NCBI GenBank assembly: GCA_039654915.1 | Contig: CM077594.1 | Location: 47,135,001-47,199,000, forward strand | DNA from: Aquilaria yunnanensis | Taxonomy: Eukaryota > Streptophyta > Magnoliopsida > Malvales > Thymelaeaceae | Direction of reading: 5' to 3' | Length of the DNA stretch: 64,000 nt | Position numbers and translations under genes: made by a program | Part shown: positions 32,628 through 63,199 of the stretch, piece by piece | Position numbering within the stretch: position 1 is the stretch's first letter | Layout: the number at the start of each line of letters is the position of its first letter | The notes under the pieces: generated by a model | What the model saw: the letters and a program-made list of their open reading frames with translations, nothing else | Told to the model about the DNA's origin: nothing | The model's database searches: none

Positions 32628-32633
32628 GTAAAC

Positions 32634-39150: not shown

Positions 39151-40123
39151 TGATAGCCAAAGGCTATTGCCTCCTCGGTAGTAACTCCCTACCAGAACAT
39201 TGGCCGAGGAGTCTGACGTCACCCAAGAGAGGATCTTTTCACTCACCTCGGAAGGTGCGAAGTCAAACACTATGAGCTCGAGACTTTGGTTAGCTCGTCA
39301 GGAATTCCGAGGACAACACCATCTCCATCGAGGGGCCAAACTGACCGTCTTCGGGTAAGAGAGCCATCTCTCTGAAGCAAGGAAGAATCTCCCTGAAGGC
39401 AGAGGCCCCGAAGAGGATCTTCCCCGAACAAGAAACACTTGAACAAGGGAATCCCCGAACTGTGGGTGTGAGTCCCGAAGAAGGTGTTCATCAAGGGAAC
39501 TCCCAGAACTATGGGATAGATCCTGAAGGAGGTGCTCGCACCGAAGGACGGATAGAATCCGAAAAGGGTGCACGCACCGAAGGGCGACCTCGCCCAGGGG
39601 ACCTCGGGAGTACGGTATGAGCATTTAAGGAGCCTCTGACATGTCGCCCACAAGCCCTACACGTCACATCAGAACGGCGAACTGACACGCCGCAGCCGCC
39701 CCAATCCTGACACAACTTGTCCGGGTCCAGGGGCTAAAGGAGGCTGCAAATGGCTGCTTGTCCCCTAGGTCCGAAAGCACAGATCAAATCCGACCGAACA
39801 CATGTCATGATCTTAACGGACCACCTACTCCTATAAATACTAGGAAAGGGGACTGGGCAAAGGATGGGCATTTTCCTCCCTCTGAGAAAACACAAAATAG
39901 GCAAGACACTTGATCCCTTAGTGTTCTTCCTCCACTTTCACTTAGAAAACTGACTTTGGCGTCGGAGGGTCTTCCCTGAAAAAGCAAACCGGGGACCTCC
40001 TAACCTCTTCTTTGAGCTTTTCAGGCACACTCAGCTGGGAAACCAAAGCTCCAGGCACTCGCCTCCTCAGGAAGTCTCTCCACCTGTCAACATGACAGCA
40101 AACGAAGATGCTTTGGGGCGTCA
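39151..40123 (+). repeat. Tat 5' LTR (973 bp)
   Basis: It starts TGATAGCCAAAGGCTAT (a short inverted repeat) and ends GGGGCGTCA, directly before the primer site. A TATAAATA box lies at 39832-39839, and the GGCGTCGGAGG block near 39958 is common to all Tat LTRs here. Confidence 0.85.
39832..39839 (+). promoter_or_regulatory. TATA box of Tat LTR
   Basis: TATAAATA lies downstream of the CCGACCGAACACATGTCATGA block. The equivalent TATAAAT occurs at 62911-62917 in another Tat LTR. Confidence 0.55.
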
Positions 40124-41108: not shown

Positions 41109-42136
41109 TGTTACGGCCCTTCTAGAGGGAGGTAAGGACTTTAGAATTTAGTGTAGAATTTTAATTTAAGTTTGCCTAGCAAGAATTAAGAAGTTTGCCA
41201 AAGTTCACTAAGTTCCGACAAGAATAAAGCTCTGAACTAAGTTCAGGGGCAAAATGGTAATTTTGCACCCTGAGTGGCCGGGACGAGTCCCGAGTGTTTT
41301 AAAATGAATTTTTAGAACTTAACTTTTAACCTTAACTCAAACTCAACAAATAGACAAGAATTTAATCAAGAACTGTTAAATTACAAAGATGGGGGACCTA
41401 ATTGCACAAAACTTGAAACCTTGGTGGTTTGAAGGGTTAAGTGGGGTTTAAGAAGAGGGAAGAGGGGTTTGGGCTGCCATAACCCGTTTTCCAGCTTCTC
41501 AACTCCATTTCTCTCTCAAATTAAGCTTGGAATCAAAAGCTTTTGGTGCCAAAAGGTGTGGTTTGAAGTGTTCAAGCTTGGAGAAGTGATTTTCAAGCTT
41601 GAATCCATGTTTTTGAGGCGTGGAAGAGTGTTTTTCTCCATCCCCTGTTTTTGAACGAGGTATGATTCATGTTCTTGATTGAATTCGTGTTATTTGATTG
41701 ATTGGAAGCTTGGGTTTTGGTTGGAAGAGGTGTTTTTGATGTTTAGGAGCTTTGTTTTGGTTTGAATTTGTGTAGAACTTTGGAAGCTTATTTGGAAGAG
41801 GAAGGGTTCGAATTCTTGCTTGTTCTTGGTGTTAAGGTAAGGGAGAAAGTGTTTTTAAGTTGTTGGATTGCTTTTGAATTGAAATGGATTGAGAAAGTTG
41901 AGTAATTTTTGGTTATGGTATGAAGAAACGTTTTGGGAATTATGATGGACTAGCTATGTTCGAAGCATTGGTTTGATGCTTCTAATGCATCATAGTTTGG
42001 CTTTGATAGTTGGTTTTGTTCCTTGCAACATGTACTTCATGTGTATGAAATTTGGTAACTTTTGATGCTTGTTTGCTATATGTATTTGGTTGCCAAAGTT
42101 CGTAGCAGCAAACGGCCGAATTCTGCATTTCTGCAG

Positions 42137-42264
42137 AATTGGCGACGCGGCGCCAATTGGCCCGAAAATTGGCGACGCGTCGCCAATTCAATTTTTCTTC
42201 ACAGAGCGTTTGTTCGTCGGCGACGCGTCGCCAATTCCTTTTGCCTTTGGCGACGCGGCGCCAA
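42137..42264. repeat. Four GC-rich palindromes in Tekay LTR
   Basis: Units built on TTGGCGACGCGTCGCCAA lie at 42137-42158, 42167-42188, 42217-42236 and 42247-42264. The second is a perfect 22-bp palindrome, and the first and fourth carry GCGGCG in place of GCGTCG. The same array is in the 3' LTR (49471-49598), and a diverged array sits in the old solo LTR (27148-27246). Confidence 0.9.
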
Positions 42265-42699
42265 CACAAGAAAATGGGGGGTTTGACTTTTTGCTGCGTT
42301 GACCCGACCGAGACTACGGAAGGTTCGGAACGTGCCTAAGGGTCCGAGGATCCCGATGGTACTCCGAAACTTCCGAAAGTCCCACCGGAAGTATGAGTTT
42401 TCTTGAACTGTTTGAGGTAAGTAAGTTGCTTAGGCAACAAGTAAGGAAACGAATGTTGCAATTGAACTTAATTAGCTATCAATAGCTCAGGTGAGAGGTT
42501 TAGAACCCTCGTCGGCCTAGCCGTGCGGTAGCCACGAGGCCCCGAGGCGAAACCTTGTTCATCTAGTTTACATCAAAGAGGCCCTGCGGCCTAGTCTACA
42601 AGTCCCGTCATAAATTCCCCTGCATAACAACTAGGTGAGAGGTTTTATGTTTGAATTAGGCTTGCTAAGGTTCGCCCTTGAGCCATATGATAGGTTGCT

Positions 42700-42795
42700 A
42701 AGTGATAGCGCTTGGCCTATATGTCAGGTTGCTAAGTGATGGCGCTTGGCCTGTATATGTGTCAGGTTGCTAAGTGATTGCACTTGGCCTGATAC
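42700..42795 (+). repeat. Three tandem ~35-bp units in Tekay LTR
   Basis: Each unit contains AGGTTGCTAAGTGAT followed by a CGCTTGGCCT-like end (CACTTGGCCT in the third). The copy in the 3' LTR lies about 7334 bases to the right. Confidence 0.8.
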
Positions 42796-43624
42796 AGAGG
42801 ACTACTTGAGGAGAGGTCTACCGGCCTAGTATATATATATATGACTAGTACCCTCATGCTGTGTGAGCTCGCAGCCAGAGTCCTAGCTTTTTCTTGCAGG
42901 TACATCGAAGACCCTTACTGAGAATGTTGAATTCTCACTCCCTGTTTGTTATGCAGAGTCTGGAGTAGCAGGACCGGATAATCGCTGAGGATTATCACGG
43001 TAGTACCTTTTTGTGTGTAAAGGTACGGTAGTTGAGAAACTTTAAGTTTCTAGCTTGCTTAAGTGTTTAATTGGTCAGTTGGTCAGGCTGTGGTACTAAC
43101 TTGCTTCTTCCTTTGGCTGCAGAGCCTAGTAGCACTTGGCACAGGACTTGTGAGACTCGCCACTGGGACAGGAGTCCAAAGTGGGAGCTAGGGTAAAAGA
43201 TCTCAGCAAAGTCTTGTATTTTGATACAGTACTTTATTTTGCCTCCGGTATTTATGTTATAAAGAGTCCTTGACTCAGGGGATTGTTCTCTGGGTGAGAG
43301 CATTAGTTACTTATGTATAAATGCTTTCACGAGCGGTGTATGTGTAGTTAATCACTCAAAGGTTGATTTTGCTATGCTTTGGCATTTTGTATTTATTTAT
43401 ATAGAATTTTACTTAGCCGGCTAAATGTCTAAATGTTTAAATGTTTTATGGTTTTAATAAACCAAGTCAAAGCATAAGTGCATACATATTGCATTTCTAG
43501 GTTAATCAACTAGTAGCATTGGATTTAATCCACACACATAACCAGCTAGCCAATTACAATCCACCGTGAGACAAACGCTCACAGGGTATCCCGGGCAGGG
43601 GCACGGGGATCGTGTCAGTGTTTT

Positions 43625-43637
43625 TGGTATCAGAGCT
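43625..43637 (+). other. Tekay primer-binding site
   Basis: TGGTATCAGAGCT (initiator Met tRNA type) lies seven bases after the 5' LTR end. Confidence 0.85.
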
Positions 43638-43760
43638 AAGGGTTTTATTTCATGGATATTGGAGGCTTAGACTGAGATCTAGTAGTAAAGTCCAAGTGCT
43701 AGGAAGTTAGTACTGACCAACATCTGGGGAAATGTTGTCTGGTTGTGGTTGCAGGTTATT

Positions 43761-46700
43761 ATGGTTGATACGAGGTCTGGAACTTCGAGGGGGACTAGGG
43801 AACCTGGTGAAGGTTCTAGTGACCCAGTTGTGGCGAGGTTGGATGAGATATCCAGAGTGCTACAGGGTTTGACTGAGACTATGGCTCAGGTGGCACAGGG
43901 TATGAACACTCTTGTAACAGAGATGTTCAGAGATTATGGGGACAGAGGTGTTGTCCAGGAGGAAGTTGAGCCACAACAGGAACAGGAAAGGCATGCTGAG
44001 CAACAGCAAGTGCCTAGAGCTCAGGAACCCAGAAATCAAGTTCTTGAGGAGGTTGAGGAACCAGAAATGATGGAGGCTCCAAGGAGGGGAGACACTCCAC
44101 ATCAGATGAGGTTGCTGGAAAAGTTTAAGACAGTTGATCCACCTAGCTTTGACGGGACAGGAGATCCTGATAGAGCAGAGGATTGGTTGTCTGTTATGAA
44201 CAGACTCTTTACTTGTGGTGGCTATGAGACAGAGCAAAGGATGGTTCTAGTACCTTTCTTTCTGAGAGGGAGAGCCAGTCTTTGGTGGGACGACGTGATG
44301 GAGTTATTGAGGGAGAGTAATGGCACTCGTCCAGAGCACAAGAAAAAGGTGCTCAAGTGGTCAGACTTCGAGAAGAAGTTCAGACAGGAGTATATCAGTG
44401 AAGCTGCACAGGATCAGAGGAGGATCCAGTTTGAGAATCTGACACAGGGGGAGATGTCAGTACGAGAGTATGAGCAGCGATACAATTCACTTATCCGGTA
44501 TGCTCCATACATGTTGGGTAATGATGAGCTGAAAGCCAAGAAGTTTTCCCAGGGCCTGAAGCCTATTTTCAGGAGGTATATGGCGACAGTTGACATCAGA
44601 AGTTATCGCCAGATGGTTCAGAAGGCATTGGCATTGGAAAGGGAATTCGAGGATTCCAGGGCACCTATGAAAAAGGTGGAAGCTGGGCCATCTAACTTGG
44701 GGAAAAGTGCTGGAAAGCGACCAATGGTAGGGAACCAGGATCCATCTAAGAGGAGGAGGACAGGTGTGTGTCCTAGGTGCAGACGGTTCCATGGTGGAAG
44801 ACCATGTACACTGGGCACAGATATTTGTAATGTCTGTGGTCAGAGAGGGCATTGGGCCAGGGACTGCCCAAGAGTTCGATCAGTTACAGGTCCATCTTGG
44901 GCTTTACCTCCAGTACCGCTTGCTATTGGGAACCGGCCTGGAGTAGTTGCTGCAGCAGTGAACCCAAGAGTCTTCGCTTTGACGAACCAGGCGGCTAGAG
45001 AACCGCCAGCTGTACGAGGTAATTTTACTTTTCTGAGCAGTAGTGTTAGAGTGCTTTTCGATACGGGAGCTACTCTTTCAGTGATATCTTCTGCCTTGGT
45101 AGATAAGCATAGTTTACAGCGTGAAATTGCGGGTGAGTTGAGACTCATCAGGACTGCAGGGAGAGGTTTTATTGTGACCAATGAAGTGGTTACTAGGTAT
45201 CCTTTGCAGTTAGGTGATTATGACTTTTGTTGTGAGTTGTGGGTGATTGAGTTGAAATCATATGACCTGGTGCTAGGAATGGATTGGTTGAGTAAGCACA
45301 AGGCACAAATTAACTGTGAGAATCACTCAGTTGACATCATTGATGCTCATGGAGCTAGAGTGACTTGCACAGGAGGGTTGGCATCTAGTGCTAAGAGTTT
45401 ACACCTTAGACTTGTAGATACCATCCCTGTAGTTGGTGAAGAGGAGTATTACTCGTTGAATGGAGTAGCTATAGAGGAAGAGTTGGGAAGCATTCCTGTA
45501 GCTAATCAGTTTCCTGAGGTGTTTCCAGTGGAGTTACCTGGGTTACCACCTAGGAGGGATACTGAGTTTGCTATCCATCTGCAACCAGGGGTTGAGCCTA
45601 TTTCTGTACCACCTTATAGGATGTCGGCTCCTGAGATGGATGAGTTGAAGAAGCAGTTGGAGGAACTGCTAGGGAAAGGTTTCATAAGACCGAGTGTATC
45701 ACCGTGGGGAGCTCCAGTGGTATTTGTGAAGAAGAAAGATGGGACTTTTAGGTTGTGCATCGATTACAGGAAGTTGAATGCAGTGACAGTTAAGAATAAG
45801 TATCCACTTCCTAGAATTGATGATTTGTTTGACAGACTCAGAGGAGCGAGGGTGTTTTCTAGGATTGATCTTCGGTCTGGGTATTTTCAGATCAGAGTTA
45901 AGGAGGAAGACATTCCGAAGACTGCCTTCAGGACAAGGTACGGACATTATGAGTATACGGTTATGCCTTTTGGTGTGACTAATGCTCCAGCAGTGTTTAT
46001 GGAAGCTATGAATCGGATCTTTAAGCCATTTCTGGATCAGTTTGTTGAGGTCTTCATCGATGATATTCTGATCTATTCACAGTCTACAGCAGAGCATGAG
46101 GAGCACCTTAGAACGGTTTTGCAAGTGCTGAAGGATAATCAGTACTATGCAAAATTTTCTAAGTGTGAGTTTTGGTACGAGAGGATTCAGTTTTTGGGGC
46201 ATATTATCAGTGCTCAAGGTTTGTCAGTTGATCCTGAAAAGGTTCAAGCAGTGGTTGATTGGAGGAGACCGACTACAGTTACAGAGGTCAGGAGTTTCTT
46301 GGGTCTAGCAGGTTACTACAGACGCTTCATAGAGAAATTCTCTGTGATAGCTACGCCGTTGACAGCATTGACCAGGAAAGATCAGAAATTTGAGTGGACA
46401 CCGAAGTGTGAAGAAGCCTACATGAAGCTGAAGGAAAAGTTGACCAGTGCACCCATACTTGTGTTACCAGACCCGGACAGAGCCTTTACAGTTTATACTG
46501 ATGCGTCAGGTTCAGGTTTAGGTTGTGTTCTACATCAGGACAGTCAGGTAATTGCTTATGGTTCGAGACAGCTGAGGCCTAATGAGTTGAACTACCCTGT
46601 TCATGATCTTGAGCTTGCAGCAGTGATCTTTGCACTGAAATTATGGAGACATTATTTGATGGGAAGATCGTTCAGAATCTTCACTGATCACAAGAGTTTG

Positions 46701-48485
46701 AAGTATTTGTTTACTCAGAAGGATCTGAACATGAGACAGCGGTGATGGATTGAGTACATTAAAGACTATGATTGTTCGATCGAGTATTGTGCTGGTAAAG
46801 GGAACGTGGTAGCGGATGCTTTGAGTCGGAAGTACACAGGAGTGATCTTGTCCAAGGATCAGGCTACAGATTCTTCAGAAGGAGCATTGAAGGATTGTTT
46901 CTTAGCTTTGCATGAATTATGGCAAAGTCGAGAAAAATCCTTAGTCTACGTTTTGGAGATTCAGACGGCTTGGTTAGCCAGAGTCAGAGAAGCTCAGTTG
47001 AAAGATCCATTGTTGAAGAAGATTTCAGGTGAAGCTAAGACTGGTGCTTTGAAGAAAGAGTTCAAGTACAAAGATGGAATACTGCATTATGGTGATCGAC
47101 TCTATGTGTCGAATGTTGAGGGACTTAGGCAGCAAGTCCTACAGAAGGCACATAGTAGTACATTGAGTATTCACCCTGGTGTTAGTAAGATGTATCAAGA
47201 TCTGAAGACACATTTTTGGTGGCCAGGACTGAAGAAAGATGTACGAGGACATGTGGCAAAGTGTTTGACATGTCAAGTGGTGAAAGCTGAACACCAGAAA
47301 CCAGCAGGCACACTTCAGAGTTTATCTCTACCAGTGAGGAAGTGGGGATCCGTTGCTATGGATTTCCTAGTGGGGTTACCGACCACCCGGAGTCAGCATG
47401 ATGCTATTTGGGTAGTGGTTGACAGGTTGACGAAGTCGGCACACTTTATACCGATCAGAGTCACCTATACATTGGAGAGGTTGGCTCAGTTATATCTCAG
47501 GGAGATCGTGAGACTCCATGGGATACCAGATCAGATCATATCAGACAGAGATCCACGATTTACATCACGGTTCTGGAATGCTTTTCAGGAAGCATTGGGC
47601 AGTAAAGTTAGCCTCAGTACTGCTTTTCATCCACAGACTGACGGACAGTCAAAGAGGGTGATTCAGACTTTGGAGGACATGCTACGCATGTGTGTCATTG
47701 ATTTCAGAGGTGATTGGGATCAGCACTTACCACTGATCGAGTTTGCCTATAATAACAGTCATCAATCTGTTATTGGAATGGCGCCCTATGAAGCTTTGTA
47801 TGGGAGACGGTGTATGACACCTCATTGTTGGGCAGATCCGACAGACAGAGTGGTCGTTGGACCTGAGATCATAGCTGACACTACAGCTAAGATTAAGTTG
47901 ATTCAGCAGAGAATCAAGACAGCTAATGACAGACAGACTAAGTATGCAAACAGAAGAAGAAGAGAATTGAGTTTTGAGATTGGTGACAAAGTACTTCTGA
48001 AAGTGTCGCCCATGAGAGGAGTTAGTCGTTTTGGACAGAGGGGCAAGTTAGCTCCAAGGTTCATTGGACCTTATGAAGTGTTAGAGAAAGTTGGGAAAGT
48101 TGCTTATCGGTTGGCTTTACCGCCTAACCTTTCTCAAGTGCATAATGTGTTTCACGTTAGTTTACTCAGGAAGTGCACAGTTGAGCCCGGACAGGTAGTA
48201 AATCCTTCAGTGATACCCATTCAGGAGGACTTGACTTATGAAGAGAAACCAGTTCAGATTTTGGATAGGCAAGTCAAGAAACTACGGACTAAGTGGATTC
48301 CGATGGTTAAGATCCTTTGGTCTAACCATAGTGAGGAGGAAGCTACCTGGGAGACAGAGCAGGATATGCTGAAAAGATATCCTGGTGTTTTTCCAGAGTT
48401 GCAACGGAATTTGGGGGACCAAATTCCAGAAGGAGGGGAGAATGTTACGGCCCTTCTAGAGGGAGGTAAGGACTTTAGAATTTAG
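43761..48485 (+). pseudogene. Tekay gag-pol polyprotein with chromodomain (one internal stop)
   Basis: I start at the ATG at 43761; an upstream in-frame TTG (43743) is less likely. Domains by codon from that ATG: gag core (about 115-250); CCHC knuckle [14 protein letters not shown] (about 356-369); protease DTGA (434); RT with [10 protein letters not shown] (palm Asp pair at about 767); RNase H (YTDASG at about 912); integrase zinc region (about 1115-1165) and core (1190-1400); and a C-terminal chromodomain (about 1490-1545). A TGA at 46743 interrupts RNase H; an original CGA would give Arg as in the family. In integrase the DGQSE glutamate reads DGQSK (AAG at 47652-47654). The stop codon at 48483 lies inside the 3' LTR. 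Without the TGA the frame would be 1574 codons, typical of full-length Tekay elements. Confidence 0.93.
48428..48442 (+). other. Tekay polypurine tract
   Basis: AGAAGGAGGGGAGAA directly abuts the 3' LTR and lies inside the end of the pol frame. Confidence 0.85.
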
Positions 48486-50951
48486 TGTAGAATTTTAATT
48501 TAAGTTTGCCTAGCAAGAATTAAGAAGTTTGCCAAAGTTCACTAAGTTCCGACAAGAATAAAGCTCTGAACTAAGTTCAGGGGCAAAATGGTAATTTTGC
48601 ACCCTGAGTGGCCGGGACGAGTCCCGAGTGTTTTAAAATGAATTTTTAGAACTTAACTTTTAACCTTAACTCAAACTCAACAAATAGACAAGAATTTAAT
48701 CAAGAACTGTTAAATTACAAAGATGGGGGACCTAATTGCACAAAACTTGAAACCTTGGTGGTTTGAAGGGTTAAGTGGGGTTTAAGAAGAGGGAAGAGGG
48801 GTTTGGGCTGCCATAACCCATTTTCCAGCTTCTCAACTCCATTTCTCTCTCAAATTAAGCTTGGAATCAAAAGCTTTTGGTGCCAAAAGGTGTGGTTTGA
48901 AGTGTTCAAGCTTGGAGAAGTGATTTTCAAGCTTGAATCCATGTTTTTGAGGCGTGGAAGAGTGTTTTTCTCCATCCCCTGTTTTTGAACGAGGTATGAT
49001 TCATGTTCTTGATTGAATTCGTGTTATTTGATTGATTGGAAGCTTGGGTTTTGGTTGGAAGAGGTGTTTTTGATGTTTAGGAGCTTTGTTTTGGTTTGAA
49101 TTTGTGTAGAACTTTGGAAGCTTATTTGGAAGAGGAAGGGTTCGAATTCTTGCTTGTTCTTGGTGTTAAGGTAAGGGAGAAAGTGTTTTTAAGTTGTTGG
49201 ATTGCTTTTGAATTGAAATGGATTGAGAAAGTTGAGTAATTTTTGGTTATGGTATGAAGAAACGTTTTGGGAATTATGATGGACTAGCTATGTTCGAAGC
49301 ATTGGTTTGATGCTTCTAATGCATCATAGTTTGGCTTTGATAGTTGGTTTTGTTCCTTGCAACATGTACTTCATGTGTATGAAATTTGGTAACTTTTGAT
49401 GCTTGTTTGCTATATGTATTTGGTTGCCAAAGTTCGTAGCAGCAAACGGCCGAATTCTGCATTTCTGCAGAATTGGCGACGCGGCGCCAATTGGCCCGAA
49501 AATTGGCGACGCGTCGCCAATTCAATTTTTCTTCACAGAGCGTTTGTTCGTCGGCGACGCGTCGCCAATTCCTTTTGCCTTTGGCGACGCGGCGCCAACA
49601 CAAGAAAATGGGGGGTTTGACTTTTTGCTGCGTTGACCCGACCGAGACTACGGAAGGTTCGGAACGTGCCTAAGGGTCCGAGGATCCCGATGGTACTCCG
49701 AAACTTCCGAAAGTCCCACCGGAAGTATGAGTTTTCTTGAACTGTTTGAGGTAAGTAAGTTGCTTAGGCAACAAGTAAGGAAACGAATGTTGCAATTGAA
49801 CTTAATTAGCTATCAATAGCTCAGGTGAGAGGTTTAGAACCCTCGTCGGCCTAGCCGTGCGGTAGCCACGAGGCCCCGAGGCGAAACCTTGTTCATCTAG
49901 TTTACATCAAAGAGGCCCTGCGGCCTAGTCTACAAGTCCCGTCATAAATTCCCCTGCATAACAACTAGGTGAGAGGTTCTATGTTTGAATGAGGCTTGCT
50001 AAGGTTCGCCCTTGAGCCATATGATAGGTTGCTAAGTGATAGCGCTTGGCCTATATGTCAGGTTGCTAAGTGATGGCGCTTGGCCTGTATATGTGTCAGG
50101 TTGCTAAGTGATTGCACTTGGCCTGATACAGAGGACTACTTGAGGAGAGGTCTACCGGCCTAGTATATATATATATGACTAGTACCCTCATGCTGTGTGA
50201 GCTCGCAGCCAGAGTCCTAGCTTTTTCTTGCAGGTACATCGAAGACCCTTACTGAGAATGTTGAATTCTCACTCCCTGTTTGTTATGCAGAGTCTGGAGT
50301 AGCAGGACCGGATAATCACTGAGGATTATCACGGTAGTACCTTTTTGTGTGTAAAGGTACGGTAGTTGAGAAACTTTAAGTTTCTAGCTTGCTTAAGTGT
50401 TTAATTGGTCAGTTGGTCAGGCTGTGGTACTAACTTGCTTCTTCCTTTGGCTGCAGAGCCTAGTAGCACTTGGCACAGGACTTGTGAGACTCGCCACTGG
50501 GACAGGAGTCCAAAGTGGGAGCTAGGGTAAAAGATCTCAGCAAAGTCTTGTATTTTGATACAGTACTTTATTTTGCCTCCGGTATTTATGTTATAAAGAG
50601 TCCTTGACTCAGGGGATTGTTCTCTGGGTGAGAGCATTAGTTACTTATGTATAAATGCTTTCACGAGCGGTGTATGTGTAGTTAATCACTCAAAGGTTGA
50701 TTTTGCTATGCTTTGGCATTTTGTATTTATTTATATAGAATTTTACTTAGCCGGCTAAATGTCTAAATGTTTAAATGTTTTATGGTTTTAATAAACCAAG
50801 TCAAAGCATAAGTGCATACATATTGCATTTCTAGGTTAATCAACTAGTAGCATTGGATTTAATCCACACACATAACCAGCTAGCCAATTACAATCCACCG
50901 TGAGACAAACGCTCACAGGGTATCCCTGGCAGGGGCACGGGGATCGTGTCA
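48443..50951 (+). repeat. Tekay family-2 3' LTR (2509 bp)
   Basis: It has the same length as the 5' LTR. The five differences I find are near 48823, 49979, 49997, 50319 and 50927 (four transitions and one transversion). Confidence 0.95.
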
Positions 50952-50956
50952 CCATC

Positions 50957-51600
50957 CGTGACTATGTCGAGAGGTTCAACAGAGAGGCCCTCAGTGTTCC
51001 GGACTTTCATCCCGAAATCCGCATCCTCGCCATGACGAGGGGCCTCCGGAGGGATTCGCACTTGTTTTATGAATTCTCCAAAGATCCCCCGGACACGCTG
51101 GGAGAATTCTACCGAAGGGCTGAACAACATATGACAGCCGAAGAGCTGAGAATGACTTGACCGAAGGCTGACCATATTCACGCTCGTGGCGAAGGGTCCA
51201 GCCAGCAAGCCCGGTGTCCAACGGAACAGTTAGGCCGACCTCGGAGAATGCGAGTAGGAGGAAGGAAGCCCCAAAACTTTACACCTCTGAGCACCACGAG
51301 GGCTAACGTCCTCATGGCGTTGGAAAAACAGGGGGCTGAAATCCAACGACCGAGGGGCATGACTGCTGACAACAGAAGGAACATGAAGAAGTTCTGTCAG
51401 TTCCACCGTGATCACGGTCATGACACCGAAGACTGCTTTCAGTTGAAAAAGTACATTGAATCACTGATAAAGCAGGGCCAACTTCGGTGTTATTTGAGAA
51501 TGCCTTCCCCGAATTGGAAAAAAGAGGAAGAAGGAAAGCCCGATGACGAGGATTACGATTCAGACAGACGAAGGAACCGAAGTCCGAGAAGGCGTCCTCC
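50957..51600 (+). pseudogene. Tat gag, C-terminal part with zinc motif
   Basis: The gag frame resumes after the Tekay insertion in the same phase. It encodes IRDYVERFNREAL, a FYRRAEQHM segment, a TGA stop at 51158, and the Tat-type zinc region CQFHRDHGHDTEDCFQLKKYIE (about 51393-51460). An Arg-rich linker leads into protease. Confidence 0.85.
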
Positions 51601-54600
51601 ACCTTCGGCAGGAGTAATACAGATGATCACAACCGGACTTCCATCCTCGGAAAGAAAAAGAAGGGCCAGAGAGATAGCGGTGATGGAATATCAGAGGCCA
51701 ACGAAAAAATTGGCCCGCGAGGATGGCTCCACCATCGTATTTCCCCATGACGATCCATTGCTGATAATCGCGAGGATAGGAAACTGGGACATCAAGAGGG
51801 TACTGCTGGACGATGGGTCAAACGCAGACGTCTTGTTCTCATATTTGCTACCAAGCTTGGGCGTATCCAGGAGCGACCTCAAGGCTGTTACTTCACCCAC
51901 GTTCGGCGTAGGACCATCTGAGCTACCTGTCCTCGGGTGGATCAACCTCCCCTTGATGATGAAAGGAACTTCGGAGAAAGGAACTGCTGAGTTGTTCGCC
52001 TCTACCATGGCAAGATTCATAGTCAATGAGGTTCCTTCGTCATACAATGCCATCCTCGGCAGACAGACACAGGGAAATTTGCACATTCGCCCTGATGTAA
52101 AGTACTTGACCGTTACCTTCGCCACCAAAGAAGGAGACGCAAAGATCTTCATTGATCAAGGCGAGGTGAGAAAGGTGTTCATCAGAGGACGAAAGGCTCT
52201 AGCAAGCAACCTAGCACATGCTGTAGAAGCAAAAGAGCTGGGAAGGGGCGAGGCAGAAGATCCCACAAAAGCGGAAACAGAAGAAGTAGAGCTTGTCCCA
52301 GGCCATAGTACCCGAATAGGGAAAAGCATGGCCGAAGGAGACAAGGAAAAACTTATATCTTTTTTGCTTGCAAATAAAGATCTGTTCGCCTACTCGCCGA
52401 AGGACATGCCAGGGGTAGACCCTCGCGTAATCCAGCATAGCCTCAAAGCGAGTCCGGAAATAAAACCTGTCTGGCAAAAGAAACGGAGCATCTCAGCTCA
52501 TAAAAGTAACTTCGTCAAGACCGAAGTCCAGCGTCTGATAGACGCTAGCGTTATCCGGGAGGCAAACTACCCCGAATGGCTAAGCAACGTGGTAATTGCC
52601 ACAAAAGAAGGAAGTAGTAAGCTCCGGATGTGCATCGACTTCAGAAATTTGAACGATGCTTGCCCGAAAGATTCATATCCTCTTCTGCCAATAGACCAAC
52701 TAGTAGACTCAACTGCCGAGTACGGGCTCCTAAGTTTCCTGGACGCTTTCAGTGGCTACCATCAGATAAGGATGGACCCCGAAGATGAAGAGAAGACTGC
52801 CTTCATCACCGAGGGAGGAACATATTGCTATATTAGGATGCCCTTCGGGCTCAAGAATGCAGGGGCCACCTACCAGAGGCTGATGAACAAGGTCTTCAAA
52901 GACCAAATGGGGAGGAACATGGAGGTGTATGTTGATGATATGATAGTCAAAAGCAAACTGCCTGGCTACCACGTTGCAGATTTAGAGGAAACCTTCCAAA
53001 AACTCAGAGCCTTCGGGATCCGCCTTAATCCTGAGAAATGCATCTTCGGGGTAACCTCGGGAAAGTTCCTTGGGTACATGGTATCCGAAAGAGGCATCGA
53101 TGCTAACCCCGAGAAGATTAAGGCTCTACTTGAATTCTGAACTCCTGCCACAGTCAAAGACGTGCAAAGAATCACCGGAAGAATAACCTCTCTGAGCAGG
53201 TTTATTTCCAGGTACGGAGATAGGTGTCGACCCTTCTTCAAAGTGCTCACAAAGGCAGCAAAGATGGAAGGCGACCTCGGAAGGAATGGTCATCCTTGGG
53301 ATGAAAATTGCCAAAAAGCCTGGGAAGAACTCAAAGTCTACTTGGCTAGCCTGCCGACTCTGCGGCAACCTCGGGAGGGAGAGCCCCTCGTATTATACCT
53401 CGCCGTCACAAAAAAAGCTGTGAGCTCGGTCCTCGTGAAAAAAGAAGGGCCAAAGCAATGGCCGGTCTACTATGTCAGCAAGTCCCTGCATGGCGCCGAA
53501 GTCAGGTACCCTTTGCTCCAAAAAGCTATATATGCCTTAGTGCTTGCAGGGAGAAGGCTGTGGCCATACTTTCAGGCTCACCCCATTATCGTCCGAAGTA
53601 CCCTGCCTCTACGGGATGTTATGAGGAAAGTTGATCACTCGGGAAGGCTTTCCAAGCGGTGTATAGAGCTTGGCGAACACGACATCACGTATGAACCCCG
53701 GAAAGCTATAAAAGCTCAAGCTTTGGCAAACTTCATCGCCGAAGTACCAAACACCGAGGAGGGACATTCATTTTCGGGCGAAGATGAGCCAGAATGGACG
53801 TTATATGTTGACGGGGCCTCAGGATCCGAACACCAGGGAGCTGGAGTGATTATCAGAGGCCCCGAAGGCCTAGAAGTAATGAAGGCCATCAAGTTCAGTT
53901 TCAACGCCAGCAACAACATGGTCGAATATGAGGCCCTCATAGCAGGATTACGCCTGGCCAGAAAAATTGGCGTGAGAAACTTGAAAGCCCATAGTGATTC
54001 CCAGCTGGTTGTTCGGCAAATGGCAGGGGACTATTGCGCGAAAGACCCGACCTTGGTGAAATACCATGAGTTGGTAACAAAGCTTATTCGGGAGTTCGAC
54101 GTCGTGAAAATTGAGAACGTACCCCGACGAGAAAATGCTGAGGCAGACTGTTTGGCGAAGTCCAAAACTTGCACCGAAGTGCTAAGCCACCCCAGCATCG
54201 CGATGTTAAGCATAGAGACCTCAGGGAAAGGATGGAAAGAACCAATCAAAACGTATCTCGCAACCAACACACTCCCCGAAGACCCCAGCGAAGCCGCAAA
54301 AGTGTGAAGGCGCTCCGGACGTTTCTTCTTAATTGGAGAAGAACTATATCGGCAACGATATGCAAATCCACTACAGAGGTGTGTTAGTGAAGAGGATACT
54401 GAAATGATCCTCGAAGAAGTTCACGAAGGTGCCTGTGGTTCGCACATCAGAACCGACGCCCTGGCAGCAGTGATACTTCACCAAGGATACTTCTGGCCTA
54501 CCCTGAGAAAGGATGCCAAGCAGTTCGTCCAGAAATGTGGTAGTTGCCAGAGACATGCGAACATCCAAAGAACACCCTCAGAGTTCGTGACCTCGGCAGA

Positions 54601-55520
54601 CTATCCTTGGCCCTTCGCAGTTTGGGGCATAGATCTCATTGGGCCACTCCCAATGGCGCCTGGAGGCGTAAAGTTCTGCGTAGTAGCAGTAGACTATTTC
54701 TCTAAGTGGGTCGAGGCAGAACCTCTGACAACTATCTCGGCAAAAGAAGTGCAGAAGTTCGTATGGAAAAACATCGTATGCAGATTTGGCATACCGAGGG
54801 TACTCGTAGCGGACAATGGATCCCAGTTCATAGACAAAGGATTCCAAGAGTTCATTAGCGACCTCGGGACAAAAATGCACTTCGCCCCAGTAGCTCACCC
54901 CCAAAGTAATGGGTAGGTGGAAGTATCTAACAGGACCATAAAAGATGGTCTGAAAAAGAGACTGAGGGAAGCAAAGCGGAAATGGCCGGGAGAACTCCAA
55001 AGCGTGTTATGGAGTTATCGAACAACACCCCGAAGAGCCACAGGGGAAACGCCTTTTTCACTCGTCTTCGGTACAGAGGCCATCATCCCTGTCGAGGTAG
55101 TACAACCGTCAATACGAGTCCAAGTGTTCGATGAAAAAGGAAATGACCTCGGCCTGAGAACCAAGCTCGACCTCGTCAGCGAACACAGAGAAGTAGCCGA
55201 GCTGAGAAGAAAAGCTTTCCAGCAAAGAGTGGCAGCAGCCATAAACCTCCGCGCTAGGCCAAAGGGAATAAAGCTGGGAGACCTCGTTCTCTGAAAGGCT
55301 GAATTTGCACCCCGAAAGCCGTCCCACAGGGTACTTCGCGCAAATTGGGAAGGACCCTACCTGGTACTTGCCGAAGTACGAAAGGGAGTTTATAAGCTCC
55401 GCGATGCCGAAGGCATAGAATTAAAAAACACTTGGCACTCAGAGGCCTTGAAAAAAATTCTATGCCTAAAAAGTTTGGTGGGAGAGTTGTATTGCACAAG
55501 TTGGACAAATTTGTCTAAGT
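51600..55520 (+). pseudogene. Tat pol: protease, RT, two RNase H domains, integrase
   Basis: One frame, continuous with gag, carries: protease (LLDDGSNADVL near 51806); RT (about 52440-53000, palm motif YVDDMIV near 52930); a gypsy-type RNase H (about 53390-53740); a second, archaeal-type RNase H (LYVDGASGSEHQGAG near 53802, with HSDSQLVV near 53990); and integrase (zinc region about 54420-54560; core Asp residues in GIDLIGPL and VADNGSQF). The tail has a WEGPYLV segment. In-frame stops lie at 53138 (TGA), 54305 (TGA), 54914 (TAG, just beside the integrase Glu) and 55292 (TGA). No frameshift is seen. The second RNase H is the known signature of the Tat lineage. The frame ends near 55520. Confidence 0.9.
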
Positions 55521-55569: not shown

Positions 55570-55850
55570 AAGGAAAGCAAAAGTATAGTTTTCCGAAGTC
55601 TCTTGAGTGAATATGTTCGGGACAAAGGAAAGCAAGAGTATGGTTTTCCGAAGTCTTTTGAGCGAATATGTTCGGGACAAAGGAAAGCAAAAGTATAGTT
55701 TTCCAAAGTCTCTTGAGCGAATATGTTCGGGACAAAGGAAAGCAAGAGTATGGTTTTCCGAAGTCTCTTGAGCGAATATGTTCGGGACAAAGGAAAGCAA
55801 AAGTATGGTTTTCCGAAGTTTCTCGAGCGAATTATGTTCGGGACAGTGGG
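55570..55850. repeat. 55-bp tandem repeat array, about five copies
   Basis: Each unit contains GAATATGTTCGGGACAAAGG, AAAGCAA(A/G)AGTAT and GTTTTCC(G/A)AAGTCTCTTGA. Unit starts fall at about 55609, 55664, 55719 and 55774, plus a fifth with one extra base. It lies between the end of pol and the end of the antisense gene. Tandem arrays in this position are known for Tat/Ogre elements. Confidence 0.92.
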
Positions 55851-56695
55851 AAACAAAGGAATCTGGCAAAAATACTTAGCCAAATTTTTATCTATTGAGC
55901 CAAAAAGTGCTTACAGAGAAGAAAGTTGCTGAAAGACTACAAAAAAGAAGAAGAAAATGAAGACAAAAGGCCCTAGTACAAACTAAGGAACCTCGGCGTC
56001 TTGAGAACTGCCAGCCTCTGTGCTTTTTTGTCAGCAGCCTTCGGCGCCGGGAAAGAAGGAGGCAGTTTCAAGTGCTCGATCTTGGACCAAGTCCACCGAG
56101 GCTCCTTCGGGATGTTCATGCCTTCCAGGAAGGAGACGTCAAAATCTGGGAACTTCTGCAGAATATGGTGCCGAACAAGACAGAAGCCGTCTTGAAAGCC
56201 CAACTTCGTCATATCATCGGACTCCCGCTTCTTGACCTCCAAATATGCATAGTCCTTCTCCTGATCCGCGTAATCCTTCTCCAGATCCTTGAGCTTTCTC
56301 TTCAAAGACTTCATCTTCTTCTTCTCTTCTGAAGGCTTCTTCAGAGATGCGACCTCGGCTTCGAGCTGGGCCTTTTCCTCGAGCGTCTTCGCAAGGATTG
56401 CGTCACTTTCTGACTTATCCTTTTGAATCGTTTCTACGATCGAAGTCAGCTCCGCCATCCGAGAGCCGATGTCGGAAAGTTTCTGGGAGGTGCCTTTCTC
56501 AAGTTCCTCTTTCTCTTTTATGAACCCCTCCCGAAGTTCAGCAATTTGCTTCTCTGAAGACTGCTTCAGCTGAGCATTATCAGCAGCCAACGCCGAACAC
56601 TGGGCCTTCGTCTTGGTGTAAAGGTCCCAGAGTGACGCCCTCCTTTCTGACTCTCGCGCCACCCGAACACGGAGCAACCCGGCATACCCCATCAG

Positions 56696-56778
56696 CTGCA
56701 AAAAAAGCAAACAAAGGGATAATGATGCTAAGTAAAAAGCAAAGGCGAAATTGGCACTAAGGAAACAGTAAAGCGTAC
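56696..56778 (-). other. Intron 3 of Tat antisense gene (83 nt)
   Basis: The donor is CCCAG|GTACGC and the acceptor TTTTTTTGCAG|CTGATGG. The junction falls between codons. The Tat copy at 62139-62223 has CCCAG|GTAGAC and TTTTTACAG|CTCTTGG at the same place. Confidence 0.78.
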
Positions 56779-57038
56779 CTGGGCGGCATGTTCAGTGAGT
56801 TTGGCGGCCAAAGAGATGTCGCCTGGGTAAGCCTCAGTAAGGGCCTTGTAAGAGGCCTCAGTAAAAACCCCTTTGCACATCTGCCTGGCCATCTCGGGAC
56901 AGTCCTCGGAGTACATATTCATGTCCTCCGTGAACGTCCAGAAGGGCTCCTTCGGAACTTTCCCTGCTGGGACTTTGGCATCCCGAAGGGCCCTCTTGCG
57001 GGCGTGTTCGGCAACCCAGTCAGGAGCGGCCGCCTCCG

Positions 57039-57123
57039 CTGCACAACAAAGCAGAAAAATTGTAAGGCCAGAAAACTCTTAAGGATTTACAAGAGAAAAA
57101 AGGTTCTTCGACAAAATACAAAC
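57039..57123 (-). other. Intron 2 of Tat antisense gene (85 nt)
   Basis: The donor is CCAGCAG|GTTTGT and the acceptor TTTGTTGTGCAG|CGGAGG. Splicing joins G to CG and keeps the frame into the AAAPDW segment of exon 3. Confidence 0.75.
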
Positions 57124-57521
57124 CTGCTGGCACCTCGGTAACGTCGTCGTCAAGGATCGACGTCACCTCAGTAGAGATCCCCTTGCCTCTTATTTGGCAC
57201 CGTTCCTTGGCAGAAGGGGTCTCCTCCCCATCGCCCTCCAGAAGAGCATGCGAAGGCATGGGGCTTTGAGGAAGGACATCGAAAGAAGGGACGTCGACAG
57301 AAGGAACCTCGAGAAAGGGGCAGCAGGGTGTTCTGGCTCCTCGCCTACCTCCTCCGGAATTTACGGAAGAGAGGAAGGAGCAGCTTTCTTTGCCCATTTG
57401 GAAGGAGGGCCGCCCGAAGTCTGCTTCCGCCTCCGAGAGGCGGCCTTCTTTGTCTGTTCACCCCTCTCGGCCTGCCCGGTAAAAAGAGCCTTGTAGAAGG
57501 CAGCCGCGTCGTCGCCCATCT

Positions 57522-57594
57522 CTGAAAAGAGGAAAAGAAGATCAGTGTAAGTCCAGGATGAAGTTATGAAGGAAAAAATGAGAAAGTAACTTAC
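57522..57594 (-). other. Intron 1 of Tat antisense gene (73 nt)
   Basis: The donor is ATGAGA|GTAAGT and the acceptor TTTTCCTCTTTTCAG|AGATGG. The copy at 32627 keeps GAGA|GTAA; its acceptor region near 61362 reads GCAAAG and appears mutated. Confidence 0.78.
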
Positions 57595-58660
57595 TCTCAT
57601 AAAAAGACTCATAAGTCTCTTTCCCCCGAAGGAGTTTCACGAGCCAGGAGTCCTTCCCCGAAGAAGCCAGTTTCGGCATGTTGAGGTCTGTCGCATGCTC
57701 CTTTACCACCTTGAGTTCCCGAAGGACCTTTTCAGTCATGAGCCTCCAGTTGATCGGAAAGGGGTAAAGGGCACGAGGAGAGACCTCGGCAGCCCTGTCA
57801 GAGACGGCCCGGATGCGCCTGTCGAAGCCCTCAAAGATAGGTGCTACGTCGGCGTCTAGCAGTATCTTCGGGTCAACAACATCCATCTTGAGCCTCCCCT
57901 GAGCCCACTTGGTCGGGACGTGCGACCAAGCCTCCGACTTCTTCAGGAAAAAGAATTTTTGTTGCCACCCTCGCCAGCTGTCTTTAGTGGCGAAGGTGAA
58001 CGTATACTTTTTGCTCCCGGATCCCCGAGGTAGCATAAAGTAGAAGCCACCCTTCGGGACCACGAAGAGCTTGTAGTACTGAAGAAAAACTACAAAGTGA
58101 GGTTTTATTTTGAAAACGCCGCACATACAGAGGAAGGCGTTGAAATAGCAGTACGAGTTCGGTGGGAGTTGGTTAACGGCAATGCCATGGAAGTTGCAAA
58201 ACGCGCTAACCATCTCCGGGGGGAATACCGAAGTCCGGCCTTCAGTTGGGCTCGGAAAACGGTGATTTCATCACTTCGGTTGGAGAAAGGAAATTGGTCA
58301 GGACGGGGCAACCTCATCACAGAGTAAGAGGGTAAGAAAAACTTTTTCCTCCACTTCGCTAGTTTTGCCGGAGTAGTGCAGCAAGGGTGAGAAAGAAGAG
58401 GTTGCCAACTCTCGGGAACAGGCATGATGAAAAGGAGTTCGGGAAAAACAAGGAAAACGAGTTCGGGAAAAACAAAGAAGAAGCTTTGAAAAAAGCAAAA
58501 GGACTAAAACCCACCAAAGGTCTTGCCGGAATCTGGATTTCTGGAAGCCGTCGTGAAAAGTGGTCGGAAAAATGCCTGAAAAAGGAGAACCGCCGTGAAA
58601 AATCTGGAGAGAATTAGAAGGCAAAAGAAAGCAAAAGCAGAAAGAGGGTTATGACAGGAC

Positions 58661-58671
58661 TGATATATATA
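58661..58671 (-). promoter_or_regulatory. TATA box of Tat antisense gene, copy 1
   Basis: CCTATATATATCA on the minus strand lies about 240 bp before the ATG at 58425, in the same CTCGGCCTATATA context as in the minus-strand Tat at 31514. Confidence 0.6.
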
Positions 58672-58995: not shown

Positions 58996-61296
58996 TGTTA
59001 GTATTGTGACCAAAAAGCCAATCATGAGATGATTGTATTTTTGCACATTGAGTCATGATATTTTATTGAGGCATTTATCCAGCAATTTTGTTTGTTGTTT
59101 TGTTTCTGCGTAACGTAATAAACATAATTGTAACTGATAGCCAAACGCTATCGTCTCTATCTGGCCGAACTCCCTGCCACAATGATGGCCAGAAGAAGCT
59201 GGCGCTACCCGAGAAAAGGTGCGATCAGGCACCTCGGAAGATAGCCGAAGAGCTCCGAGCCCGGCACGCCAGGAAGCCCCGAGGACACTATTCGCCCCCC
59301 AAGGTTGTGAACATATCGCCTTCAGAAAAGCGGCACCAGACATAGCGAGCCGAACATGATATCCCCGAAGGCGGAACTCCCTGAAATTGGGAACCCCCGA
59401 ACTAAGGGCTTGTTTCCCGAAGAGGCCCTGTCCGAACTAGAGGACGACCTCACCCAGGGACCTCGGGAGTACGGCAGGAGCATTTATGGAAGCATTTAAG
59501 GAAGCCTCTGACACGTCCTTTCGCAGACGTCATAAAGTCGCCTGAATAGGCGCTCTGACATACGGACGCCATCAGAATCACATCATGGCCCATCTCAGCA
59601 CGTGGCTCAGGACAACTTGCTACCAGTTATCTATCTCCTACGCCCAGAAACTCAGGGAACATCCGACCGAACACGTGTCGTGATCTGAACGGGCTAGGCA
59701 CTCCTTTAAATACCAGGAATTAATACTGGGCAGGAGGCTGGTTGGTTGGCCAAACACGGCTCCCACACTCTGAGAAAGCTATCAGGCGAGACCCTTCAGC
59801 CCTTTGTTCTATTTCCTCAGCCTTTTCTCAGCCACCACTGACTTGGGCGTCGGAGGCTCCCCCCCCCCGGAAAAACACTCCGGGGGCCTCCTAACCCTTT
59901 GTTTATGAGCTTTCAGGCACTCCTCTTCGGGCTGTCCATTCCACCAGACGTTCTTCCTCCCAGAAGTCTCTCCACCAGTCACCATGACTATAAACGATGA
60001 GGCCCCTGGCCATCAATAACACTAGAATAATGATATTCTTAAATGTCCCTAGTCTAGTATTATTGTGGAGCGGGTTGCAATAATACATAATGACTAGCAT
60101 ATGTGGAGACTAATATGAGATATGTAGTCTACATATGGGTACAAGTTGGAGAACTTGTGTACTGGACCGACCCACCATGAGAACACTTCATGGATCGTTA
60201 TATGAGTGTCATAAGTGATTCTCATAGTGATCATGGTATATGTAGTCCTTCGACCAAAGATCAGCAAGGTTCCCTACATGTGAGTCACATACTTTGATAC
60301 TTTCCTTTGTTGCTCGTAACTGAGTGAACTTGAAGGAGGTCATTGGGTATGTCACATATCATGCGGAGGGATTTGTATGATCAAGATGGGATTTGTCCCT
60401 CCTATGTAACGGGAGTGATATCTTTGGGCCCCTTGATAGAGTGAGACTTAGAAAATGCATGGCCATGCTCCGATGAGTTGATATATGATATCAATGTCGT
60501 CAGTTTAAGTTGGTGTACTCGGTAATCAAGAAACCAAAGATTGGGCTATACGAGAGTGACACATTCCATGTCTTGTGCTTAGTCTTGATATCTTGGACAA
60601 AGGGACAATGGCATATATCGGTGATGATCATAAAGGTTTAGTCGATTCACCGACAATCTTGTCACTTGGGTAGCAATGATGTGTTGCTAGACACCGCTCA
60701 TTGCTTATGATCATAAATGTGATTTATGATCATTGCCAACATGGCAAGAGCCTATTGGGTCACACACATAGAGCTATTTGGATCATTAGAGTGCATGGGC
60801 TAATTATTTGGGTTATGGTTTCACTTTAATTTCGTATTAATAATGGGCCAAGGAGTTGAGCCATTATTAAGCCTGAAATTAAATCCTAATTGGATTAGGG
60901 CTTTGAAACCATTAGGCCTGGAAGTTGAGTCGCACTATAAATACAACTTTTAAGTGAGAAATTCGTAGGTCTCCTTGCCCTAGCCTCCCAAAAGGACAGC
61001 CGCACTCTTCTCTTGCAATTCCTTGGAGGACGCAAGCTAGCACTGCGAGCGCAAGAGAAACGCATCTGCCGGGACGTGGTGGAAGCGTGGTGATTCCGAG
61101 AGGCTCGTGTGGATACCATAGAGAGCCTGAACACGTCAACTGTTCAGGTTTTGTGATTCGACTCTACAGTTGAGTGAGAGATCTCAACCGAAAATTAGGT
61201 ATGAAATTTTCGAACACCCGGTTTACCCCGTTTCACTTGGATCCTGGAGGGTTTCGGTTAAATTCCGCTGCGCTGTTTGGCTCCCGAAACCCAACA
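58996..61296 (+). repeat. Copia 3' LTR, interrupted by a Tat solo LTR
   Basis: The LTR parts are 58996-59134 and 60021-61296. Together they are 1415 bp, against 1416 bp for the 5' LTR. It starts TGTTAG and ends CCAACA, with a TATAAATA box at 60936-60943. Confidence 0.92.
59135..60015 (+). repeat. Tat solo LTR (881 bp) in copia LTR, TSD GTAAC/ATAAC
   Basis: It starts TGATAGCCAAACGCTAT and ends GGCCATCA. Flanks GTAAC (59130-59134) and ATAAC (60016-60020) differ by one transition. The uninterrupted target is visible in the copia 5' LTR near 32770. The ACTTGGGCGTCGGAGGCTCC block lies near 59840. Confidence 0.92.
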
Positions 61297-61301
61297 TAAG
61301 C

Positions 61302-62345
61302 TACTTTCCATATTTTTAATATATCTTCTTTTATACTTACACAGATGTTCTTCTTTTTGCAAAGATGGGTGACAAGTTGCTACCTTCTACAAGTCTCTCT
61401 TCCTCGGTCAGGCCGAGAAGGGAGAGCAACAGAGAAATAAGGAAATGGCAAAGAGGAAGAAAAACCTAGGGGGACCATCTTTGGCCCTGAGGTCAAAGAA
61501 GACTAAGGAAGACCACCTTTCCCCCGCCGCCCGAGGACGAACTGGGGGCTATGGATCAGACCCCCGTTTGGGTGGACCCACCTCCGAAGCCCGCCATCTG
61601 TTCAACTCCCCTAAGTCCAAATACTATGGCGGAGACCTTGCGGACCTCGGTCGGGGCTTTTCTACCGAGGAGCTTGAGGAGCGCTGAAGGAGGAAAGGCA
61701 AACACATTTCTGCCGAGGTCCTCGAGGTTAGTGACTCCGAGGGTGATGACGCCGAGGTTCCACCAAGTTTGTCCCTTAGCCATTCTTCTATGAGTTTGGG
61801 AATTTTTCGTATTTTAGACATTGTAGATGAGTGGCTAAGGGATAACGTACTGATAGAACTTCGGCGTGATTTTGCAAGCAAAGTAGTGTAGGCTCCCTAG
61901 GTCGAAGATCACGCCCGAAAGAGGGCCCTTCGGGACACCAAAATCCCGAAGGGAGAAGGTTTCCATGGAGCCCTTCTGGACCTTTATGGACGACATGAAA
62001 TTGTTCTATGAGGATAGCCAGAATATGCCTCCTCAGATGGCAATGGATGTCATCACACACGCCACTTTTCAGTCTCTGACTGAGGAGTGTCCGAATTAGG
62101 AGATCCTCACCGCGAGGATGAGTAAATAGGCTACCCAGGTAGACTTCTACCCTTTAATACTTAGGAATATTCTGTGCTGTTGTTTGCCTTTTGTTCCTTA
62201 CTTGGGGTCTTTCCTTTTTACAGCTCTTGGTGTACACTGGGTACTTTCGATCTTGGGCAGCCAAGCAATCTTTGGTTCGCAGTTGGTCTGAGGAGTCCTT
62301 GACAAAGGCCAAGGAACTCTTGGCTAGCTCTGTTGTCAAGTAAGG
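61302..62345 (+). pseudogene. Tat accessory gene copy 2, exons 2-4 (after copia insertion)
   Basis: This continues the gene begun at 31768. The intron 1 remainder runs to about 61362, then the exon 2 equivalent starts MGDKLLPS (compare MGDDAAAF in the other copy). The exon 3 equivalent lies at about 61886-62138 with RKRALRD and FYEDSQNMPPQMA matching RKRALRD and MYSEDCPEMARQM. Intron 3 is at 62139-62223, and exon 4 starts LLVYTGYFRSWA. Several stops mark decay. The exon is cut at 62345 by the next Tat element. Confidence 0.65.
62139..62223 (+). other. Conserved intron 3 of Tat accessory gene, copy 2 (85 nt)
   Basis: Donor CCCAG|GTAGAC and acceptor CTTTTTACAG|CTCTTGG lie at the same codon boundary as in the copy at 56696-56778, although the intron interior has diverged. 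Confidence 0.7.
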
Positions 62346-63199
62346 TGATAGCCGAAGGACTATCGCCTCTCTCACCTCGTGCCTCCTGCCGAAAACAAGG
62401 TAACCGGAGAGCTTAATGTCACCCAAAGGAGGCACTATCACTGACCTCGGAAAGAGGAAAGTCAAGACGTGTCAAACTCGGGACTTCGGCTAACACCTCA
62501 GGGACTCCAAAAACGTTACCAGCTCCTTCGGGGGACCAAACAGATCACCTTCGGGACAGAGGCCCTTACGAGCAGTAGAGAATCCTCCTAAGGCAGAACC
62601 ACCGAACTAAAGGACTCCCAGAACTATGAGCATAACTCCCGACGAAGGGCATCCATACCAAAGAATGACCTCGCCCAGAAGACCTCAGGAGTACAGCATG
62701 AGCATTTAAGGAGCCTCTGACATGTCGCCCACAGGCATTACATGCCGCCCCAAACGGCGGTCTGACACGCCGATGCCATCCAGGTCTTGTCACGACCTGT
62801 CTCGGTTCAAGGCTCAAGGAGCCTGCCACCGGCTACTTGTCCCTTACGCCCAGAAACTCAGGGAACATCCGACCGAACATGTGTCGTCATCTGAACGGGC
62901 TGGGCACTTCTATAAATGCCAAGGAACAGACCCTGGCAAAGGGTTCGACTCCTCCTCCTTGAGAAGACACACACAGGCAAGGCCACTAAAACCTTTAGTG
63001 CTCCCCCTTTACCTTCTCAAGAAACTGACTTGGGCGTCGGAGGCTCCTCCCCGGAAAAATACTCCGGGGACCTTCTAACCCTCTCTTCTGAGCTTTTCAG
63101 GCACGCTCCTCTGGGAAATCTGGGCCCCAGGCATTTTCCCTCTCAGGAAGTCCCTCCAGAAGTTACATTGTCACTCAACGAGGATGCCTCGGGGCATCA
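62346..63199 (+). repeat. Tat 5' LTR (854 bp)
   Basis: It starts TGATAGCCGAAGGACTATCG and ends GGGGCATCA before the primer site at 63202. A TATAAAT box lies at 62911-62917, and ACTTGGGCGTCGGAGGCTCC near 63029. Confidence 0.88.

Follow-up and report, generated by a model that had tools for sequence, protein, structure and literature searches.

A Tat element and the sequences nested around it

The window analysed here, a stretch of 64,000 nucleotides of Aquilaria yunnanensis DNA (contig CM077594.1, positions 47,135,001 to 47,199,000), holds a retrotransposon, element A, which carries a gene on the strand opposite to its own. We identified the 5' LTR of element A at 39151-40123 on the plus strand (TGATAGCC...GCGTCA, with boundaries drawn by eye), followed by the PBS-like TGGCGCCGTCTGTGGGAA. 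The gag region, named from its position, reaches about 41109, and pol occupies four ORFs at 51248-55294 on the same strand. Pfam matches on three of these ORFs were RVT_1 on one, RT_RNaseH_2, RT_RNaseH and RVT_3 on another, and Integrase_H2C2 and rve on the last, with no protease match in the three ORFs scanned. Within the ORF at 53162-54307, RT_RNaseH_2 and RT_RNaseH lie within residues 46-170 and RVT_3 at residues 217-334 (E 1.7e-20), and the integrase ORF, which opens at 54404, comes next. We take this RVT_3 match to be aRH.

The criteria described for Tat elements include an extra RNase H (aRH) between RH and INT and a PBS other than the tRNA-Met type (PMC6317226). Both were found in element A, where RVT_3 lies between RNase H and integrase and where the 5' LTR is followed by TGGCGCCGTCTGTGGGAA, unlike the TGGTATCAGAGC of the copia element described below. 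Element A is thus a Tat element, and the first-pass annotation, which had placed the gene inside one, was right on this point. The TGGTATCAGAGC of the copia element is presumably of the tRNA-Met type. No 3' LTR of element A was found in the window; the element stops at about 58733, where copia sequence resumes, and we read the missing second LTR as damage and not as a family difference.

The gene lies downstream of pol, toward the lost 3' end, and runs antisense to it (minus strand, 58425-55973). A 55-bp tandem repeat of five copies (55570-55845; TRF, 93% matches) separates the two. Tandem arrays were reported in 32 PRARE internal regions, most frequently between pol and the 3' LTR (PMC11963269). 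Judged by its tandem repeat and its antisense TRP28 gene, element A probably belongs to the Retand lineage rather than to Ogre.

Element A itself invaded another element, a presumed Ty1/copia element at 32634-61296 (LTR about 1.41 kb) that we assign from its PBS TGGTATCAGAGC and from copia-type RNase H motifs, read by eye, that extend to about 58940. The invasion took place within the copia RNase H region. The copia LTRs (32634-34047 and 58996-61296) are 98.5% and 97.8% alike in two matched stretches and are bordered by the target-site copies TAAAC/TAAGC. We considered these two repeats as Tat LTRs and rejected this, as they flank the Ty1/copia element that contains element A. Sequences similar to the 5' LTR of element A do occur at 59135-60015 and 62346-63199. 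The former is apparently a solo Tat-type LTR within the copia 3' LTR, with target-site copies GTAAC/ATAAC.

Two further repeats were noted in the window. A Ty3-type element at 41109-50951, with 2509-bp repeats (LTRs) that are 99.8% identical, interrupts the gag region of element A; its gag-pol is held in two long ORFs (43743-46745 and 46806-48485), with what we take to be a chromodomain-like end. In addition, a 1473-bp direct repeat (16870-18342 and 23228-24700, 98% identical) possibly represents the LTRs of another recent element.

Exon-intron structure of the antisense gene and its copies

In element A (copy A), the gene is divided into four predicted exons by three U-rich GT-AG introns, all on the minus strand. 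Exon 1 (57595-58425) encodes a TRP28-like N-terminal part, exon 2 (57124-57521) a linker with basic clusters seen by eye, and exon 3 (56779-57038) is followed by exon 4 (55973-56695), which encodes an E/K-rich, coiled-coil-like C-terminal part and the stop. Intron 1 (57522-57594), intron 2 (57039-57123) and intron 3 (56696-56778) measure 73, 85 and 83 nt, exactly the lengths given for them in the first-pass annotation. T content is 48-49% in the three introns and 18-26% in the four exons. The gene strand has 426 spans of 65-120 nt that open with GT and close with AG; 8 of them reach a T fraction of at least 0.47, and all eight begin at most 40 nt from a predicted donor; on the opposite strand, which is the sense strand of gag-pol, none of 564 such spans does.

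The same annotation held that every junction keeps the reading frame. Taken junction by junction this is correct: the frame of the minus-strand ORF that opens at 58213 runs across junction 1 into the start of exon 2, and junctions 2 and 3 link the end portion of exon 2 to exons 3 and 4 in a common frame that runs to the stop codon at 55973. It fails for the gene as a whole, as no single open frame spans the four exons. The frame from the ATG at 58425 terminates at 58105, and from about 58213 onward the conserved protein is read in a different frame. Exon 2 opens in the frame of later exon 1 and hits an in-frame TAA at 57363-57361, and the stretch leading to intron 2 is in a frame that differs from that of the exon 2 start. 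The end of exon 4 also differs from that of its closest relative, a protein designated P0001 (94% identical). Because of these frame changes and the in-frame stop, copy A looks like a pseudogene of a formerly functional spliced gene, and the claim of an intact gene was not upheld.

We also found a second copy of the gene, copy B, on the plus strand. By homology to copy A, its decayed exon 1 (31767-32627) ends at an intron-1 donor at 32628, and the Ty1/copia element is inserted in its intron 1. Beyond the copia element, copy B resumes at 61297-62345 with the remainder of intron 1, followed by exon 2, intron 2 (placed by homology at 61767-61877), exon 3, intron 3 (62139-62223) and the start of exon 4. 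A third copy is represented by fragment T (10981-11644, minus strand), which comprises the start of exon 1 and the promoter region. Exon 4 of copy B is interrupted by the LTR at 62346-63199, which belongs to a further Tat-type element (PBS-like TGGCGCAGTCTGTGGG) with a gag-like ORF next to it. This plus-strand ORF at 62916 was considered as part of copy B and rejected, since it begins in and follows that LTR; it had no Pfam match.

Copies A and B can be aligned across all three introns, whose positions are common to both. Identity is 67, 52, 61 and 44% in exons 1-4, the exon 4 figure coming from 96 nt compared, and 61, 52 and 46% in introns 1, 2 and 3, so that exon 2 is no more alike than the introns are. 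Copy B has kept all three GT donors and one of three acceptor AGs (acceptor 3; acceptors 1 and 2 are lost). Intron lengths in A and B are 73 and 67 nt for intron 1, 85 and 111 nt for intron 2, and 83 and 85 nt for intron 3, although the lengths in the decayed copy B may have shifted after decay. The differences of 26 nt in intron 2 and 2 nt in intron 3 are not multiples of three and would break an unspliced frame; intron 1 differs by 6 nt, a multiple of three, and the argument from length therefore rests on introns 2 and 3. Given that the intron positions are common to two diverged copies, splicing of the antisense gene looks both old and selected, and the first-pass reading of an antisense, intron-bearing gene inside a Tat element is supported by copy B as well as by the anatomy of copy A.

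Selection, promoter and relatives of the gene

In all six exon segments compared, copies A and B differ most at third codon positions of the splice-predicted frame. Third-position mismatches make up 37 of 67 in exon 1a, 94 of 205 in exon 1b, 21 of 39 in exon 2a, 41 of 66 in exon 2b, 47 of 87 in exon 3 and 24 of 32 in the part of exon 4 compared, and the excess gives one-sided Fisher p values of 7.4e-11, 0.0027, 0.00046 and 0.0075 for exons 1-4. Introns 1 and 2 also have uneven phases at their few sites (13 of 23 and 9 of 28 in one phase). NG86 estimates covered segments 1a, 1b, 2a and 3. For exon 1b, dN was 0.27 and dS 1.25, with dN/dS about 0.22 (204 codon pairs; one with a stop excluded), for exon 2a 0.25 and 1.68, with dN/dS 0.15 (25 pairs), and for exon 3 0.385 and 1.678 in the spliced frame, with dN/dS 0.23 (81 pairs; four excluded). 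In these three segments pN exceeded pS in both shifted control frames. In exon 1a dS was saturated (65 pairs; two excluded), and one of its two control frames also had pS above pN (0.475, 0.365). Fragment T compared with copy A likewise had a third-position excess, with 40/67 versus 31/68 and 20/68 in one comparison and 22/31 versus 4/31 and 7/31 in another. On this sequence comparison, the exons evidently were under past purifying selection in their splice-predicted frames.

These data bear on the question of whether the blocks are exons at all. Antisense TRP28 and Smc domains have been found in ORFs called by ORF Finder (PMC11963269), and the ORFs 58213-57542 and 56710-55973 each stand alone in the window, as would be expected if a TRP28 ORF and a coiled-coil or Smc-like ORF were separate and unspliced and the GT-AG gaps were spacers. 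However, no ORF of at least 90 aa is listed in the frame of exon 3 (86 codons), although purifying selection acted on this exon in the spliced frame; the supposed spacers are rich in U, with GT and AG at their ends at positions common to A and B; and two of the three differ between the copies by lengths that are not multiples of three. We therefore consider separate ORFs quite unlikely, and we are highly confident that the antisense gene has a true four-exon spliceosomal structure, as predicted from its sequence.

The selected product may in principle be the antisense RNA, as a dsRNA or siRNA regulator, with coding secondary; a role of this kind was raised as a possibility for antisense aORFs (PMC7264820). 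Against this, the third-position excess in all four exons and dN below dS in exons 1-3 argue that amino acids were selected, which makes a primarily RNA-based role very unlikely, although an RNA role and a protein role can coexist.

A TATA box lies at 58664-58671 on the minus strand, 246 nt upstream of the ATG at 58425. The box (TATATATA or TATATAAA) is common to copies A and B and fragment T, at 58671, 31514 and 11566; measured to a single homologous position within exon 1, the distances are 252, 289 and 285 nt, respectively. This is consistent with the promoter of its own that had been suggested for the gene, and would fit a promoter like the one described for Grande gene23 (PMC7264820).

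Protein searches, two of the three limited in scoring to about 8000 candidates sharing most words, found a single relative for exon 4 (P0001) and five for exon 1 (P0002-P0006) among the candidates scored. P0001 is 94% identical over 53% of the 418-residue query. Similarity of P0002-P0006 to the window ORF continues to the intron-1 donor, and the proteins then end 17, 49, 2, 17 and 17 residues past it. Pairwise identity among these five and the window ORF is 441/600 over the final 40 columns of the exon but 39/95 over the 12 columns past the donor codon, so that the place where the relatives' ORFs drop in similarity is the position of intron 1. P0003 reads through past the donor and then enters exon 2 in the wrong frame; by hand count from the protein, its intron 1 would be 94 nt long, which differs from 73 by a multiple of three.

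PF04195 (Transposase_28), the family of 'putative gypsy type transposon' proteins to which the first-pass annotation had also pointed, matches in the N-terminal part. Among the five relatives scanned (P0001-P0005), the family was found above the cut-off in two of the four exon-1 relatives, P0002 (27.9 bits) and P0003 (30.6 bits), with no match in P0004 and P0005, both of which are without the N-terminal part, or in the exon-4 relative P0001. Copy A itself fell below the cut-off (19.5 bits against 26.2, E 0.0012), its match being split by the frame change. P0001 had SMC-like NCBIfam matches far below the cut-off, which amount to coiled-coil similarities. No relatives were found in viral contig scans with exon 4, exon 1, alignment A1 and RT, in genome contig scans with A1 and RT, or in plasmids by tblastn with P0003. 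A PDB sequence search with P0003 gave weak matches only (best E 0.051, ThsA), and AlphaFold on six exon-1 sequences gave no usable fold (mean pLDDT 32). P0004, from a 10446-bp contig filed under Agrobacterium sp. ST15.13.040, is 74% identical to the exon-1 ORF and probably stems from plant DNA contaminating a bacterial assembly.

Proposed mechanism and comparison with known systems

Our strongly favoured, sequence-based reading is that the gene is very likely a decayed copy of an antisense TRP28-type accessory gene of a Tat, probably Retand, element, and a real four-exon spliceosomal gene. Its mRNA, opposite in sense to gag-pol, would start downstream of the TATA box, splicing would remove the three introns, and the translated protein would combine an N-terminal domain of the TRP28 type with a basic linker and a long coiled coil. 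Passage through RNA is expected to strip LTR retrotransposons of their introns. The antisense gene would escape this loss: reverse transcription copies genomic RNA of the other strand, on which the splice signals go unread, and the introns of the gene would therefore persist. The first-pass proposal that antisense introns survive reverse transcription fits well with the retention of all three intron positions in two diverged copies. The mirror case is provided by retrotransposition reporters, from which introns in sense orientation are spliced out (PMC12786077). Function is the weakest step of this reading: the most likely role of the protein would be in the nucleus, on the DNA or transcription of the element itself, as has been proposed for Grande gene23 and TRP28 proteins, a role that we put forward by analogy and with clearly less than even confidence. 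A DNA-binding function has been predicted for TRP28 (PMC11963269).

As to origin, antisense capture of genomic or pre-mRNA sequence by one element would bring introns along, and the copies in the window are decayed, as a functionless passenger taken from a host gene would be. The presence of two diverged copies and a third fragment, and the selection signal between A and B, stand against such a passenger, as do the reports that antisense TRP28 is encoded by 61 of the 63 clusters that have ten or more copies and has no similarity outside TEs (PMC11963269). Capture by one element is thus very improbable, and a recent capture of a host gene is already hard to hold. Since the gene has introns, an origin from cDNA is also unlikely, unless the introns were gained later. 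The intron positions offer a handle on where the accessory gene came from.

Tentatively, and with somewhat less than even confidence, we suggest that Retand-type elements generally carry one ancient multi-exon spliceosomal antisense gene, in which the reverse orientation shields the introns and the antisense strand provides a stable home for intron-containing genes. If this is true, ORF-based surveys have divided what is a single gene for TRP28 plus coiled coil, and the introns may help the gene to be expressed or to evade silencing. If it is general, what has been read of the TRP28 proteins of a widespread plant retrotransposon lineage would be fragments, the full-length protein comprising a TRP28 domain and a coiled coil.

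Antisense extra ORFs of Tat-lineage elements, to which the first-pass annotation had referred, are already described and near-universal in Retand, where antisense TRP28 ORFs were reported in 97% of clusters (Vicient 2025, PMC11963269). That survey describes single ORFs, whereas the blocks found here would be exons of one three-intron gene. The word 'intron' does not occur in the main text of PMC11963269 or in PMC7264820, the authors of which call for a search for spliced antisense transcripts, and in the sections of PMC6317226 drawn on here introns appear in two places, both on Ogre. Among the results listed in searches of the open-access literature, no report of introns in antisense Tat or Retand genes was found. 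Within that scope the intron structure of the antisense TRP28 gene appears to be unreported, the antisense TRP28 ORFs themselves being known.

Several known systems resemble the gene in part. In common bean, some Ty3 families are described as carrying downstream extra ORFs (211-939 aa in the passage drawn on here) as single ORFs (PMC4093653). Their ORF2 proteins, such as that of pvRetro13, resemble the product of the gene here as downstream extra proteins, some with an SMC-type match, a likeness drawn by description; they are single ORFs, and 'intron' does not occur in the sections of PMC4093653 drawn on here. The pvRetro13 ORF2 protein is called antisense in PMC7264820. Given these single ORFs, introns may not be general among such antisense or extra genes. 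Another such system is gene23 of maize Grande (Gomez-Orte 2013, via PMC7264820), which is antisense, lies downstream of pol, has its own promoter and encodes a nuclear protein. The gene described here is likewise an antisense accessory gene downstream of pol, as far as a comparison by description goes. Ogre of pea and Medicago is a Tat-clade element with a spliceosomal intron, as is the case here (PMC6317226, PMC12786077). Unlike the Ogre intron, the antisense introns of element A would need no balance of the kind that the Ogre intron requires.
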